Of a stretch of 64,000 nucleotides of DNA, positions 24,601 through 42,087 are shown piece by piece. The notes below the pieces were generated by a model, which worked only from the letters and a program-made list of their open reading frames with translations, did not search any database and was not told the DNA's origin. A program made the translations under genes and the position numbers. The stretch covers positions 1 through 64,000 of the forward strand of contig NW_023501083.1 of assembly GCF_014066305.1 (NCBI RefSeq), in the 5' to 3' direction. Position 1 is the stretch's first letter. Each line of letters begins with the position of its first letter. This stretch comes from Letharia columbiana. Taxonomy: Eukaryota > Ascomycota > Lecanoromycetes > Lecanorales > Parmeliaceae.

Positions 24601-25736
24601 TATTTTTTAAATATTTTTTTAATTTATTTTTTATATTCTAATTTTTAATATTTAGAAATATCTATCTATAATATTATAACTTCTTTTAAGAAATTTATAA
24701 TATATAATATATTTAATTTCTCTTTAAACTTTTTTATAAAGATATTAATAAAATAAAAATCTATCTCTATGAATTTAATTAAGTTTTAAAAAATAGATAA
24801 TCTTTTTAATAACTAGCTCTTATAGATTTTTGTAAATTATTCTTTAAAGTTAGCTATAGAAATAATTTAAATATTATTATTAATTATAATTTAAATATTT
24901 AATATAAAGATTTTAAGCTAAGAATTAATAATAAAAATAAATTTAAATAAATAAGAATATTTTAATATTAGAGATTAATACTAGATAGAAATATTTTAAT
25001 TTATATTTAATTAAAAAACCGTAGTCGATATAGCGTAGATATTAATCTTTCTCCGCTTCGATATTTATACGATTTTTATCTTTATTAATAGTATAGATAT
25101 AGTTAATAACTCTAGAATCTTAATCTTAATTTTTAGAATTTTCTAGATTACTTAAATAAAAACCTCGTTTTTATCTCTTATAATAATAAGATCGAGTTTT
25201 TCTTATTAAATATTTATTTTATTTAATTTTAAGATATTAGTATCGATAATTATATTATAAAATAAGTTAAATATAATATAAAATTCTCTCGAGATTTGTT
25301 TTTTAATTATTATATATATATTAATAGAGGAGTATATATAATCCCGCGATAGTAATATATTAGCTTCTACTTTTTTATAGCGAAGTCTTCTTTTATTAGA
25401 TATAGAATAGACTTTATTCTTATTAAAAAATTCTAAATAATATTAATTAGATATTAAGAATATTTTAAAGTTAGAGTCGATGTAAAAATTATATATTCGT
25501 CTATCTTTACTATAATAACTATTTATAGTATTAAAAAACTCCTTAAATACTATATTATATTTCTTCTTATTTTTTAATTCTATATTTATAATTAATATTA
25601 ATATAAAATTTAAATTATTAATATTTTTAAAAGATATTTATAAATAATATCGAGAATTCGATATAGCGTTTAAAGATATTCTTATAGTTAATATAATAGT
25701 AAAGTTTTTTTTAATTAAATCTTAATTATTAGTTAG

Positions 25737-25921
25737 TATTAAAAGTAGAATATTAGATATATTAGAAATTGAAATAATTGTAACTAAAAGACTAATTATT
25801 GATTTATGGGATATATGAATATTTATATATATAAAATAGATAGCTGATAATAGCTAGTAATTACTAGTTCTAGTAATATACGATATATTATACGATAGTC
25901 GAAGGGGCTAATATTATAATA
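25737..25921 (+). repeat. Family B LTR (B1, 5')
   Basis: It matches 26510-26693, 28540-28722 and 29439-29621 in direct orientation, and 28030-28206 and 29864-30388 (interrupted) in reverse. Conserved parts are the start TTAAAAGTAGAATA and the near-end GCCGAAGGGGCT. Confidence 0.85.
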
Positions 25922-26100
25922 CTCTCCGATAGCCTTAGAAGCTAATTCCTTAAACCTTAGTATATTATATCTTATATATATTAGTTTTCAAATCCACGCT
26001 TTAAATTCGAGATTAATTATTTACCCGACCTTATTAAATCTATAAAAAACCTCGATAGAGAAAATAGAAAGAGTGCCGGGGCTTTAAATACCCGTTTCGG

Positions 26101-26310
26101 GACCTCGAAATAATATAAGGGTTTTTAATATCTTATTCATATTATTTTAAGACCTCGAAATAATATAAGGGTTTTAATGGTTTGCCTGTATTGTTTTAAG
26201 ACCTCGAAATAATCTAAGAGTTTTAATGGTTTGCCCGTATTATTTCGAGACCTCGAAATAATATAAGGGTTTTAAAGTTTTACTCGTATTATTTCGAGAC
26301 CTCGAATAAA
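26101..26310 (+). repeat. 49 bp minisatellite inside B1
   Basis: The motif GACCTCGAAATAAT begins at 26101, 26151, 26200, 26249 and (as GACCTCGAATAAA) 26298, so the period is 49-50 bp with about 4.5 units. Across unit junctions ATTATTTCGAG meets CTCGAAATAAT, an 11 bp inverted repeat, so the array could fold as a series of hairpins. B2 and B3 carry the same array with different copy number. Confidence 0.85.
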
Positions 26311-26353
26311 ATAAGAATTTTAGTTCGATATTTTTTATATAGAAATTAAATAG

Positions 26354-26400
26354 CGATAGCCCTCTCGTCGATGAATATGAGCTAAAAAAATGGGCTATCG
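26354..26400 (+). other. Hairpin in the internal region of B1
   Basis: CGATAGCCC (26354-26362) pairs with GGGCTATCG (26392-26400). In B3 the same place forms a longer outer stem (29282-29291 with 29321-29330) and an inner stem CTCGT/ACGAG (29293-29297 with 29306-29310). Conservation of pairing in separate copies suggests a structured RNA or DNA element in the family B interior. Confidence 0.6.
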
Positions 26401-26509
26401 TTATAAGATATATCTATTTATAAACGATTATCGAAGACTTAGTTTAATATCTATATTAGAAAGTATAAGAATATTCGATATTATTCTACCCGCTTTCGGG
26501 TTTATAACT

Positions 26510-26693
26510 TATTAAAAATAGAATACTAGATATATTAGAAATTGAAATAATTATAACTAAAAGACTAATTATTAATTTATAAGATATACGGATATTTATA
26601 TATATAAAATAGATGGCTAATAATGGCTAGTAATTACTAGCCTTGATAATACGCGATATGTATACGATAGCCGAAGGGGCTGATATTATAACA
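26510..26693 (+). repeat. Family B LTR (B1, 3')
   Basis: Direct copy of 25737-25921. It contains a perfect 18 bp palindrome, GGCTAGTAATTACTAGCC, at 26625-26642 and ends with TATAACA next to the target duplication GTTAG. Confidence 0.85.
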
Positions 26694-26698
26694 GTTAG

Positions 26699-28024
26699 AA
26701 GCTTTAAGAGAATTTTCTTTAATTTTCCTCTTTAATTAGAGCTTTTAAAGTTATATAAATCTCGAGATTATAAATATTAAGATCTTTCTCTTCTTTTTTA
26801 TTATAATTTTTATTATTATTATTATTTTTATTAATATCTATTTATTTAAAATTAATCTTTATAATCTTTTAACTACTTTCTCGATAGTTATTATTTTAAT
26901 AATCTTTATTATAATATTTATAAAAATAAAATAATAACTTTTTAAATTAATATTTATTCTTTTTAATTTTAGATATCTTTAATAATCGCTTAAATCTAAT
27001 ATCTAAATTAATCTTAAATTTAAACTTTATAATCTAAATTAATTTCTTTATTATTAGATTTTTAAAGAGTTATTAAACTTTAATTAATATTAGAGTTATT
27101 AATAAATTAGATTTTTAGCGAGACTTATTTATCTTATAAACGCGCTTCGCCGCTATTTTATTATTATAAATTTATTTATTAAAATTCTTAATTATATCTC
27201 TCTTTTTATATATAAATATAATAAAAATTAAATTTATATTTAATCTCTATTAGAGATATCTAATAATTATATTTTTATTAATAACTTCGACGTTATATAG
27301 ATAATTAATTTTTTTTATTAAGTATTAACTTAACGTAATAAAAAAATTATTAAATCGAAATTTTATCTTTTTTATCTTCTTTAGAGATTTAAAATAATTT
27401 AATTAATACTCTCGAAAAAGCTTATCTTTTTATATTATTAGACTATAATTTATCTTCTAATAAACTCTTATAGAGAGATTATTATATTATTCTAAAGTAT
27501 CTTCTTTTAGATATATTAGAAGTACTCGAAGAATAAGAGTATTACTTTTTAGTTTCGCGATATATCGAAAGCGGCGAATAAAAAAGATTATAGAGTATTT
27601 TTAAGAATTAAATATTATAATATTTTTTAGACGAAGTTTTAAAGTTTTTTATTAATTCGAAGATTTTTAATAGTTTAGATACTTATATAATTAAAAATTA
27701 TTTTAAAAATTTTTATATTCTTAAAAGAGGCGATTATTTTAAATATATAAATAGTTATATTCTTAAAGTAAACGATTATTTTAATTTTAATAGCGATTTA
27801 AGACTAATTCTAAATAATAATTTTCTTTAAAAATAAATTTAAATCTAGGATTAAGATTATAATTTCGATAAAGCTTCGTATTTTATTAAATAACTCTTAC
27901 TTATAAGTAGATTAATTTATTCTTAATTATTAAGCGATTAGACTTCTTTAATTACTAATAAAATTCTTAAATAAATTTTTAAGACTTTAAATTTTAATGA
28001 ATTTCTAAAAGTAGATTTAGATAA
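26699..28024 (-). pseudogene. Gypsy Gag region relic
   Basis: This segment of the minus-strand Gypsy lies between two family B insertions. Around 26900-26950 the minus strand gives tyrosines spaced C-x2-C-x3-H-x4-C, close to a Gag zinc knuckle. A basic and Asn-rich stretch lies on the protease side of it. The remaining sequence to 28024 has no recognised motif but fits Gag by position. The call depends mostly on order relative to the RT. Confidence 0.4.
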
Positions 28025-28539
28025 ATTTCTATTATAATATTAGCCCCTTCGACTATCGTATATATATCGCGTATTATTAGAGCTAGTAATTATTAGCTAC
28101 TATTAGCTATCTATTTTATATATATAAATATCCGTATATCCCATTAATTAACAATTAGTCTTTCAATTATTCTTTTTCTAATATATCTAATATTCTACTT
28201 TTAATAGGTTATAAGCCCGAAAGCGAATAGGATAATATCGAATATTCTTATACTTTCTAAGAGATATTAAACTAAGTCTTCGATAATCGTTTATAAATAG
28301 ATATATCTTATAGCGATAATCTATTTTTTCTGGCTCGTACTCACCGACGAGAGGGCTATTGCTATTTAATCCCTATATAAAAAATATCGAACTAAAATCC
28401 TTATTTCATTCGAGGTCCCGAAATCAATACGGATAAAAAACCCTTATATCATACGAGGACCCGAATCAATTAAAAACCCTTATATTATTTCGAGGTCTCG
28501 AAACAATACGGGCAAACTAATAAAACCCTTAGATTATTC

Positions 28540-29621
28540 TATTAAAAGTAGGATATTAGATATATTAGAAAAAGAATAATTATAACTAAAAGACTAATTA
28601 TTAATTTATAGAATATATGAATATTTATATATATAAAATAGATAGCTAATAGTAACTAATAATTATTAGCTTTAATAATATGCGATATATATATAATAAT
28701 CGAAGAGACTAATATTATAATACTCTTCGATAGCCTTAAAAGCTAATTTTCTAAATCTTAATATATTATATCTTATATATATTAGTTTTTATATCTATAC
28801 TTTATATTCGAGATTAATTATTTACTCGATCTCGTTAAATCTATAAAAAACCTCGATAGAGAAAATAGAAAGAGTGCCGAGGCTTTTAAATGCTCGTTTT
28901 AAGACCTCGAAATGATATGAGGGTTTTTAATATTTTATTTATATTGTTTCGAGACTAATAATTTACTCGTATTACTTCGAGACCTCGAAATAATATAAGA
29001 GTTTTTAATGTTTTACTCGTATTGTTTCGGGACTAATAGTTTACTCGTATTACTTCGAGACCTCGAAATAATCTAAGAGTTTTTAATATTTTGCCCGTAT
29101 TGTTTCGGGACTAATAATTTGCCCGTATTGCTTCGAGACCTCGAAATAATCTAAGAGTTTTACCCGTATTATTTCAGGATCTCGAAATAATCTAAGAATT
29201 TTATTGATTTGCCCGTATTGTTTCGGGATCTCGAATGAAATAAGAATTTTAGTTCGATATTTTTTATATAGGGATTGAATAGCGATAGCCCTCTCGTCGA
29301 TAAGTACGAGTTAAAAAAATGGGCTATCGCTATAAGATGTATCTATTTATAATAATCATCGAAGACTTAATTTAATATCTATGTTAGAAAGTGTAAGAAT
29401 ATTTTAATATTATCTTACTCGCTTTCGGGCTTATAATCTATTAAAAGTAGAATATTAGATATATTAGAAAAAGAATAATTATTACTAAAAGACTAATTAT
29501 TAATTTATAAGATATACGAATATTTATATATATAAAATAGATGGCTAATAATAGCTAATAATTACTAGCTCTAATAATACGCGATATATATGCGATAGCC
29601 GAAGGGGCTAATATTATAATA
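28540..29621 (+). mobile_element. Miniature LTR element B3 nested inside B2
   Basis: LTRs at 28540-28722 and 29439-29621 enclose a 716 bp interior with no ORF. The flanking five bases are TATTC on the left and TATTT on the right, a duplication with one transition, and the two halves of B2 join cleanly without B3. Its minisatellite (about 28893-29246) is longer than that of B1, so copy number varies between family members. Hairpin at 29282-29330. Confidence 0.8.
28893..29246 (+). repeat. Expanded minisatellite inside B3
   Basis: Repeats of the GACCTCGAAATAAT motif alternate with a variant carrying CGGGACTAATA, so the array has a higher-order pattern not seen in B1. CCCGTATTG and CTCGTATTA segments separate the inverted halves. 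Confidence 0.75.
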
Positions 29622-29890
29622 TATTTCGAGATTCCGAAATAATATAAGTAAAATATTAAAAACTCTTATATTATTTCGAGGTCTCGAAATAGGTATTTAA
29701 AGCCTCGGCACTCTTTCTATTTTCTCTATCGAGGTTTTTTATAGATTTAATAAGATCGAGTAAATAATTAATTTCGAATTTAAAGCGTGGATTTAGAAAC
29801 TAATATATATAAAATATAATATATTAGAATTTAGAGAATCTAGTTTCTAAGATTATCGAGAAGTATTATAATATTAACTCCTTCGACTAT

Positions 29891-30230
29891 TATTAGGGGC
29901 TCACATATTTTTTATTAATAGAATTATAGTTTTAGTATAATTATGATTTGTATAATAAGACTACCCCGGTTTTTTTTTTATAAGTTGTGATGGTTATATA
30001 AATTTTTATTTTTAGTGATTGTATTTATTTTAATGATGTTTGGGTATGATTGGTTTTTTTTTATTTATACTCGTTAAGTTCTTTTTTCTGTGATTATGGC
30101 TGGGTTTTGTTTTTATTTTAGTCCCAGCTTGGGTTTTTTTTATATATATTTAAATTAAAATCGAATAAATCGTGCGTTGATGATGGTTTATAAGCGGGGA
30201 TATTAGTTTTATTATATTTTTTTTTATTGA
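29891..30230. mobile_element. Un-RIPed 340 bp T/G-rich insert within the B2 LTR
   Basis: It interrupts the reverse LTR of B2 exactly: the two LTR parts (27 and 158 bp) add up to a full 185 bp. The plus strand is rich in T and G, poor in C, and has many TpG (for example GTGATTATGGCTGGG), the opposite of the RIPed surroundings. Long T runs occur, A runs if read on the minus strand. I found no ORF, terminal inverted repeat or clear target duplication. It could be a SINE-like or mitochondrial-derived insertion; neither is proven. Confidence 0.6.
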
Positions 30231-30393
30231 GTATATAATATATCGCGTATTATTAAGACTAGTAATTACTAGCTACTATTAGCTATCTATTTTATATATA
30301 TAAATATTCGTATATCTTATAAATCAATAATCAGTCTCTTAGTAACAATTATTCTTTTTTTAATATGTCTGGTATTCTACTTTTAACAATTTC

Positions 30394-35700: not shown

Positions 35701-36078
35701 AATAGAAAAGAACTAATAAGGATATTCGCTCTAGATTCTACGATTCTAAACTTAATAATAAAGAAACTAATTATTTATTTTTATCGCTAAAGACGTTAAG
35801 ATCTTTAAATAATTTAAAAAAGATAAATAATTAAGATTCTTAAGATACTCTACTAACTTCTTCGATAGACTATACGATAATTAATATAATAATATTATAT
35901 TTTAAAGAATTAAATATAATAAATAGATTTTTTCTATCTTTATCGCTTAAATTCCTATTACTATTTATAGCTATATATATTTATCTCTATCTCTATACCT
36001 CTTTATCGAAATTATAAGATAATAAATCAATGCTTATATCGTTATTTATCTATTTATTATTTTTATAATTACTAAAAA
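32746..36078. other. RIPed repeat DNA, unassigned
   Basis: 3.3 kb with dense stops in all frames. A slightly less mutated patch lies near 33830-33930. The 34560 area contains the palindrome CTACGCTTCGCGTAG. I looked for RT, integrase and DDE motifs on both strands and found none that convinced me. Confidence 0.5.
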
Positions 36079-36267
36079 TTATAAATAAAAGTATCTTATT
36101 ACGAAAGTCTTTATTAAACTATTTAAAGAAATCGCTAGAGGTTATAAATGAAAGTATCTTATTACGAAAGTTTTTATTAGGCTATTTAAAGGAATCGCTA
36201 GAAGCTATAAGTGAAAGTATCTTACTATAAAAGCCTTTATTAGACTATCTAAAGAAATTTTAATTAT
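36079..36267. repeat. 63 bp tandem repeat, three units
   Basis: Units start at 36079, 36142 and 36205, each containing GAAAGTATCTTA or its variant and CTATTTAAAG, with similarity fading at the end of unit three. The period is exactly 21 codons, as expected if it arose inside a coding region. The repeat differences are mainly transitions. Confidence 0.8.
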
Positions 36268-41710: not shown

Positions 41711-42087
41711 TAGGCTATATTGTAGGCTTTTAAATATTTACGTATAAAGTCTCTTATAGCTATTATATAGCCTATATCGAAGGCTTTAAAGATCTTATAC
41801 TCGAAGTTTTCTATAGCTATTATATAGCTTATATCGAAGATTTTAAAGATCTTACGCTTGAAGTCTATTATAGCTATTATATAGCCTATATTAAAGGCTT
41901 TTAAATTCCCACGCATAAAGCCTACTATAGCTATTATTAAGTCTTCTATTATTAAATTTATAAATACGACTTTAAAGATTTTAGTAGAAAATATATAATA
42001 CGCCGTAAATATAGGAGATAATAAGACTCTTAATAAGAAGAAGAGAAGTCGAAGTAATTCGATAGTAACGTTAATATCTAAGAGCAA
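41710..42087 (-). pseudogene. Open frame over a 57 bp repeat, probably not a gene
   Basis: A 125-codon frame from ATG at 42087 ends at 41710. The N-terminal 60 residues are hydrophobic and leucine/isoleucine rich; the rest is the 19-residue repeat described above. Its length is remarkable in RIPed DNA, where stops normally occur every few codons. The likeliest reason is that the repeat unit happens to lack stop-forming contexts in this frame. I do not recognise the protein. It could be a fragment of an element ORF with a degenerate repeat domain. Confidence 0.3.
41711..41932. repeat. 57 bp tandem repeat, about four units
   Basis: Full units begin at 41755, 41812 and 41869, with partial units on each side; each starts TATAGCTATTATATAGC. 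The period of 57 bp is 19 codons. Read on the minus strand, the array lies in a 125-codon open frame (41710-42087) that repeats Y-I-I-A-I followed by a basic and aromatic segment ending in F-D-I-G. Confidence 0.85.

Follow-up and report, generated by a model that had tools for sequence, protein, structure and literature searches.

What kind of element are the short, non-coding repeats with long terminal repeats (LTRs) that lie at 25,737 to 30,388 in the first 64,000 nucleotides of contig NW_023501083.1 of Letharia columbiana, and whose machinery moved them? The host is a lichen-forming ascomycete (Parmeliaceae) with a genome of 52 Mb in 161 contigs. The 64,000-nt stretch analysed, called the window here, has a GC content of 17% and is strongly mutated by repeat-induced point mutation (RIP). 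The three repeats (B1, B2 and B3) are members of a family designated family B. On the evidence of its sequence features, family B is very probably a canonical terminal-repeat retrotransposon in miniature (TRIM) that resident Copia elements mobilise in trans. The parts of the three copies, with their target site duplications (TSDs), are given below in window coordinates.

25737..26693, minus strand: B1, complete element of 957 bp, from its LTR pair; TSD GTTAG at 25732-25736 and 26694-26698
26510..26693, minus strand: B1 5' LTR, 184 bp, from LTR comparison
26496..26509, minus strand: B1 primer-binding site (PBS), GGTTATGAGCCCGG as altered by RIP, with complementarity to the anticodon arm of initiator tRNA-Met
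26352..26402, minus strand: B1 leader hairpin; the least mutated copies have GGCGAYAGCCC..GGGCTRTCGCC; arms seen in B1, structure taken from other copies
26101..26322, minus strand: B1 minisatellite, 49-bp unit, 4.5 copies, from tandem-repeat detection
25922..25927, minus strand: B1 polypurine tract (PPT), altered by RIP; the least mutated copies have GGGGAG; from copy comparison
25737..25921, minus strand: B1 3' LTR, 185 bp, from LTR comparison
28030..30388, plus strand: B2, split by B3 and a foreign insert; TSD ATTTC at 28025-28029 and 30389-30393
28030..28206, plus strand: B2 5' LTR
28207..28220, plus strand: B2 PBS GGTTATAAGCCCGA
28312..28363, plus strand: putative B2 leader hairpin, placed by eye by analogy with B1
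29864..30388, plus strand: B2 3' LTR, split into 29864-29890 and about 30238-30388, edges approximate
29891..30237, no strand: foreign insert in the B2 3' LTR, not family B, edges approximate
28540..29621, minus strand: B3, complete element of 1082 bp nested in B2; TSD TATTC at 28535-28539 and TATTT at 29622-29626
29439..29621, minus strand: B3 5' LTR
29425..29438, minus strand: B3 PBS GATTATAAGCCCGA
29281..29331, minus strand: B3 leader hairpin, arms compared, position read from the sequence
28902..29251, minus strand: B3 minisatellite, periods of 78, 41 and 49 bp
28723..28728, minus strand: B3 PPT, RIP-altered
28540..28722, minus strand: B3 3' LTR

An earlier note on the window had described B1 to B3 as LTR elements with TSDs, with B3 inside B2, and this was confirmed with corrected edges. 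The LTR sizes were 185 and 184 bp in B1 and 183 bp for both LTRs of B3. The two TSD copies of B3 differ by one C/T. The length of B2 was ~930 bp once B3 and the ~345-bp foreign insert had been subtracted. The sense strand is minus for B1 and B3, and plus for B2.

The family was then followed through the genome. A search with B1 as the query, in which the best 40 of 154 candidates were scored, gave 54 matches. RIP-tolerant patterns, allowing at most 2 mismatches, counted 105 LTR-PBS junctions and 219 LTR edges, with 0 in the reversed controls for both. As four or more of these junctions (on contigs C5, C21, C22 and C36) belong to a sister family, B', the copy number of family B is about 100 rather than 105. 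Thirty-eight loci were fetched. All four LTR edges could be resolved in 35 elements, B1 and B3 among them; the TSD count excludes five of the fetched loci that had one LTR (L041 and L043-L046), and also L033, for which the boundary pattern was missed. The element length was 867-1082 bp in 34 of the 35, the other being 1614 bp with an insertion. The tallies of LTR spacing and PBS distances reported below refer to the first 100 places listed of the 219 edges, to the first 100 of 186 PBS matches, and to 100 of the 105 junctions.

Exact 5-bp TSDs were found around 29 of the 35 resolved elements, and TSDs with at most one mismatch around 33, all four single-base differences being C/T or G/A. When flanks were cross-paired as a null, exact matches occurred in 9 of 1190 pairs (0.76%) and matches with at most one mismatch in 8.2%, so that the TSDs are not a product of chance. 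At other lengths, exact flank matches were observed in 0/35 elements for 3, 4 and 7 bp, and in 1/35 for 6 bp. The two failures, L014a and L014b, belong to a single LTR chain, where no TSD would be expected. In this chain (L014, C26:46648-49249) three B LTRs alternate with two interiors behind a partial LTR; it is probably a recombination product. Comparison of the LTR pairs within the 35 elements gave 631 transitions vs 24 transversions, with 5677 identical sites; this dominance of transitions indicates that the LTRs of a pair were nearly identical at insertion and were mutated by RIP afterwards. Eleven places with a single LTR were also fetched, of which five were solo LTRs with TSDs (one with a C/T difference), three had no resolvable end, and three ran on into the PPT. 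Spread by segmental duplication instead of retrotransposition can be given next to no credence. One pair of copies, L025 and L033, has common flanking sequence and a common TSD and was evidently copied in this way. However, no pair among the 35 resolved elements, a set to which L033 does not belong, shared 300-bp flanks in register, and this, with the TSDs and the solo LTRs, refutes segmental duplication as the general mechanism of spread.

The internal signals were those of a retrotransposon. A PBS and a PPT sought by eye in the orientation of the first reading were not seen; both are on the opposite strand. In little-mutated copies GGTTATGAGCCCGG directly follows the 5' LTR, and GGGGAG directly precedes the 3' LTR. 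A RIP-tolerant form of the PBS was present in 35/35 copies, as was a TATA-like tract, TTTTATATATATAAATA, in the LTR. The longest open reading frame (ORF) starting with ATG varied from 41 to 117 aa among six little-mutated copies, and the 117-aa ORF had no Pfam match. Family B has no recognisable coding capacity for mobility proteins. It has the paired short direct LTRs with TG..CA ends, the short TSD, the PBS on the inner side of the 5' LTR and the PPT before the 3' LTR that characterise a TRIM, and the earlier description of a TRIM-like non-coding element was strengthened by the finding of the PBS and PPT. The 14-nt PBS GGTTATGAGCCCGG is the exact complement of CCGGGCTCATAACC in the host's own initiator tRNA-Met. 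Judged by this complementarity, priming is at the anticodon arm of the tRNA and not at its 3' end, which is a Copia mode.

The same PBS was found in some resident Copia elements, as expected of a Copia-mobilised family. The pattern combining PBS and LTR edge had 186 genome matches vs 4 for the reversed control. Half of the 100 places listed were B-type junctions. Of the remaining 50, 15 had a Copia reverse transcriptase (RT) match 4.15-5.2 kb downstream on the expected strand, and none had one in the opposite orientation. The RT search scored the best 150 of 222 candidates; of the 79 matches to Copia RT that lie on the listed contigs, 14 could be linked to a non-B PBS. At two loci (L119 and L121) the PBS was followed by an open Copia gag frame (PF14223), given which some Letharia Copia elements may still be active. 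A further Copia element with this PBS, L122, was 91% identical to L119, and a Copia gag frame on contig C7 was 100% identical to the L. columbiana protein HO173_002880. One locus picked as a Copia 5' side, L087, was instead a B copy. At the junction of PPT and LTR, family B has GGGGAG followed by TGTTAC, vs GAAGGGGAG followed by TGTTG in Copia; GAAGGGGAG, or a mutated form of it, preceded TGTTG in one Copia family (3 of 30 RT loci) and was seen again in an LTR pair. Seven Copia 5'/3' pairs were tried, of which four gave no LTR alignment and a fifth first gave a 37-bp alignment that was later completed. The three resolvable pairs all had 5-bp TSDs (AATTC, GTCTT and GATAG). The earlier note had proposed trans-mobilisation by Copia or Gypsy; because the primer site, the core of the PPT and the length of the TSD are common to family B and Copia, the likely source of the machinery is narrowed towards Copia, by which family B would be mobilised.

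Hairpins had also been noted in the interior of family B, as part of a minisatellite. The minisatellite, with a unit of about 49 bp, is real, but the conservation claimed for its hairpins was mostly unsupported. That these hairpins are the functional core of the element, for packaging or dimerisation, is distinctly unlikely, even though each of the 35 copies has at least one palindromic unit and folding is strong in B1 (z -4.9). The four copies with the least mutation had a palindrome pairing of 0.59-0.70, vs 0.73-0.88 for the eight most mutated, and across 35 copies the pairing fell as GC rose (Spearman -0.48, P 0.004). The folding z, although scattered, averaged -2.0 in the eight least mutated copies, still below shuffles, vs -4.6 in the eight most mutated (n=34 copies, L042 left out). 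RIP converts A.C mismatches to A-T pairs. As the more RIP-mutated copies tend to pair more strongly, the minisatellite hairpins are partly an artefact of RIP. RIP can therefore manufacture better palindromes, and hairpins in RIP-mutated repeats need to be tested on the least mutated copies.

The leader hairpin, and not the minisatellite, is the better candidate for a conserved hairpin. Its pairing had no trend with GC content (rho 0.12), and its z was -1.9 to -5.6 in the eight least mutated copies. Between B and B' the stem changes from ATGGCGACAGCC/GGCTGTCGCCAT to ATTGCGACAGCC/GGCTGTCGCAAT, a compensatory double transversion from G-C to T-A, which was present in both B' copies with two readable arms. 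This is not a RIP product, because RIP cannot make transversions of this kind. Transversions were found in 3 of 55 compared columns in the hairpin, two of them being the compensatory pair, vs 20 of 121 in the flanking sequence with the PBS excluded. The leader-pattern comparison missed B1 and one copy at L124; L124 was read separately, and another copy there had a disrupted 5' hairpin arm. The leader hairpin looks conserved, and a role in packaging or dimerisation is proposed for it.

A mobilisation cycle can be proposed from these signals. The LTR, with its TATA-like TTTTATATATATAAATA tract, would drive RNA, and the leader (primer site and 13-bp hairpin) would admit this RNA to Copia particles, presumably with the hairpin as the packaging signal. 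Initiator tRNA-Met, paired through its anticodon arm, would prime the minus strand at the 14-nt PBS, and plus-strand synthesis would begin at the GGGGAG tract. A Copia integrase would then insert the copy, making the 5-bp target duplication, and RIP would subsequently load each copy with C-to-T changes.

Several observations weigh against mobilisation by Copia. Family B is known from genome sequence and not from a transcript, a particle or a new insertion. A Copia RT at the distance given above was found for 2 of 50 B-type junctions (0/50 in reversed orientation), and 65 of the 79 RT matches had no listed non-B PBS 3-6.5 kb upstream. The earlier note had suggested looking for an autonomous element with the same LTR ends; Copia elements with the same PBS were found, but none with B LTRs in the sampled Copia loci. 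No B-type LTR was seen beside Copia in 30 RT loci, which reach 1.5 kb either side, and 11 Copia 5' sides, except for weak AT-rich matches (E 7e-7 or weaker) obtained only with the heavily mutated B3 LTR, and thus there is no known donor with LTRs of common descent. The agreement between B LTRs and sampled Copia LTRs is limited to the termini and PPT core, short of LTR homology with a helper, and the B leader had little in common with two Copia leaders beyond the PBS. The covariation of the leader hairpin comes from one clean pair, and folding of the whole interior was weak in one of two copies (z -4.1 in L034, -1.6 in L036). Finally, the helper survey was confined to Copia elements.

Alternatively, family B could be a deletion derivative of an autonomous element of its own, now lost or unassembled, with the resident Copia elements not acting as helpers. 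This explanation is considered unlikely. The dissimilarity of B LTRs and leader from those of the sampled Copia is in its favour, and internal deletion can give rise to TRIMs according to Kojima 2024 (PMC10886601). Among the 100 LTR edges listed, however, five outer edges had the next PBS junction 2.4-9.3 kb off. The three fetched (7.9, 8.0 and 9.3 kb) had B interior on both sides and were all B copies with nested insertions, and the other two pointed to the junctions of complete copies (L032 and L009). A common leader with different LTRs in B and B' is a further point against a deletion derivative.

Mobilisation of a TRIM by Copia without LTR similarity has been argued for before. Kojima 2024 describes TRIMs of fungi whose priming is at the anticodon loop of the initiator tRNA, attributes them to Copia, and argues from a similar situation in rust fungi that LTR homology with the helper is not necessary (PMC10886601). 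Helenus of rust fungi is, like family B, a short non-coding LTR element with a 5-bp TSD and a PBS for the initiator-tRNA anticodon loop in common with Copia, and the LTRs of a matched TRIM/Copia pair were reported as not similar (PMC10886601). Unlike family B, Helenus has a tRNA-derived promoter in its LTR; none was detectable in B. On the strength of the size, TSD and PBS that match Helenus (PMC10886601), family B could be regarded as a TRIM driven by Pol III, of the Helenus/Cassandra type, or else as a retrozyme with an LTR hammerhead ribozyme. Either is highly improbable. Seven loci with little-mutated copies and the window stretch were searched with Rfam covariance models, without a match to tRNA, 5S or hammerhead, and ARAGORN found no tRNA in the same seven loci; these searches thus detected in B neither the tRNA-derived LTR sequence of Helenus (TRIMp3) nor the 5S rRNA-derived LTR sequence of Cassandra/Ajax nor the retrozyme hammerhead. 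Weak Rfam hits (e.g. mir-1245, MIR1120) were all far below gathering scores.

Initiator tRNA-Met is the primer of both Ty5 and Drosophila copia. Reverse transcription in these two elements is likewise primed at the tRNA anticodon loop (PMC10886601); they are autonomous, whereas family B encodes nothing recognisable. GalEa Copia elements of Pezizomycotina have TGT..CA LTRs and a 5-bp TSD, as here, but are described as having a conserved palindromic hairpin in place of a PBS, and FunCo1 an internal tRNA-Lys site (PMC5445492). The Letharia Copia elements seen here, with their initiator-tRNA site, differ from both. Plant TRIMs share with family B two short LTRs, a PBS, a PPT and the lack of coding sequence, as summarised in PMC10886601, and B copies, at up to 1082 bp, slightly exceed the 1000-bp TRIM limit in that text. 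The tandem-repeat interior and the anticodon-arm priming of family B are unlike plant TRIMs, on which Witte in 2001 and Gao in 2016 reportedly published. TRIMs have been reported in another ascomycete genus, Venturia (PMC4646964). The earlier note had associated the minisatellite interior of these elements with no described fungal family. No description of family B was found in the open-licence literature, which is weak evidence of absence, and the family is regarded as new; its kind, a TRIM primed at the initiator-tRNA anticodon arm, is known from rust fungi (PMC10886601). The hosts named for Helenus in the available text (PMC10886601) are Pucciniales and some Agaricomycetes, and family B provides an example from a lichen-forming ascomycete, outside those groups, with plausible helpers in the same genome.

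Sister families were obtained from six fetched places with a non-B PBS. The LTR of B' (L125 and L124) is unlike that of B, its leader and hairpin are B-like, and its interior is not a minisatellite; the copy at L125 (C36:198100-199620) is 1346 bp with TSD ATTTT/ATTTT. Family C (L120, C12:24450-25650) is 997 bp with a 98-bp LTR, TSD GTACC/GTACC, PPT GGGGGAG and the same PBS. Its interior contains a tandem duplication of ~180 bp, its LTRs are 99% alike and start with TGTTGGAATTC, as in resident Copia, and it looks hardly mutated by RIP. Genome searches gave 14 matches with the B' LTR and 46 with C. Another place with the same PBS (L118, C8:911300-912500) has an interior in which a GTTACGGCTGGAATGGCCTATT-like unit is repeated in a long tandem array, and by eye its LTR start resembles B'. 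Set side by side, B and B' indicate the few cis-signals that a Copia parasite needs. It is possible, although rather less than probable, that B, B' and C, with their different LTRs, share one transferable licence for the Copia machinery. Equally tentatively, this licence might combine one 14-nt initiator-tRNA site, identical in the three families, with a tract of the GGGGAG type and, for B and B', the conserved leader hairpin as a packaging/dimerisation signal, leaving the interior free to vary (tandem repeats in B and C). If true, these families would amount to a natural experiment that defines the smallest set of cis-acting signals for a fungal Copia.

The tRNA that would prime these elements has an unusual gene. 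The sole initiator tRNA-Met gene found (L048:1375-1602, contig C10 about 345,717-345,944) has four exons (7, 15, 20 and 30 nt) and three introns (50, 49 and 57 nt), the introns having spliceosomal-type GT..CTAAC..AG signals. The joined exons form a 72-nt tRNA that ARAGORN identified as tRNA-Met(CAT); in the unspliced locus neither ARAGORN nor the Rfam models found a tRNA. Matches to an initial pattern for an initiator tRNA without introns numbered 3+3 vs 3+3 in the control, i.e. chance level, and a copy without the third intron had 0 genome matches at up to 3 mismatches. The only other exact match to the anticodon arm, L047, is by eye not an initiator tRNA. No report of an initiator tRNA-Met gene split in this way was found in the open-licence literature, including the available part of PMC11782384, and the three-intron gene may be more surprising than the TRIM family.

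Further observations concern the rest of the window. The ~345-bp insert in B2 is not RIP-mutated, its CpA+TpG ratio being 0.96 vs 0.20 for the window. A genome search with it gave only one other match, a 69% relative on C49, from which its identity was not evident, and nothing identifying was seen by eye in its three forward frames (code 4). Elsewhere in the window, tandem arrays with units of 63 bp (36072-36258) and 57/114 bp (41728-41937) were observed, all of these unit lengths being divisible by three.

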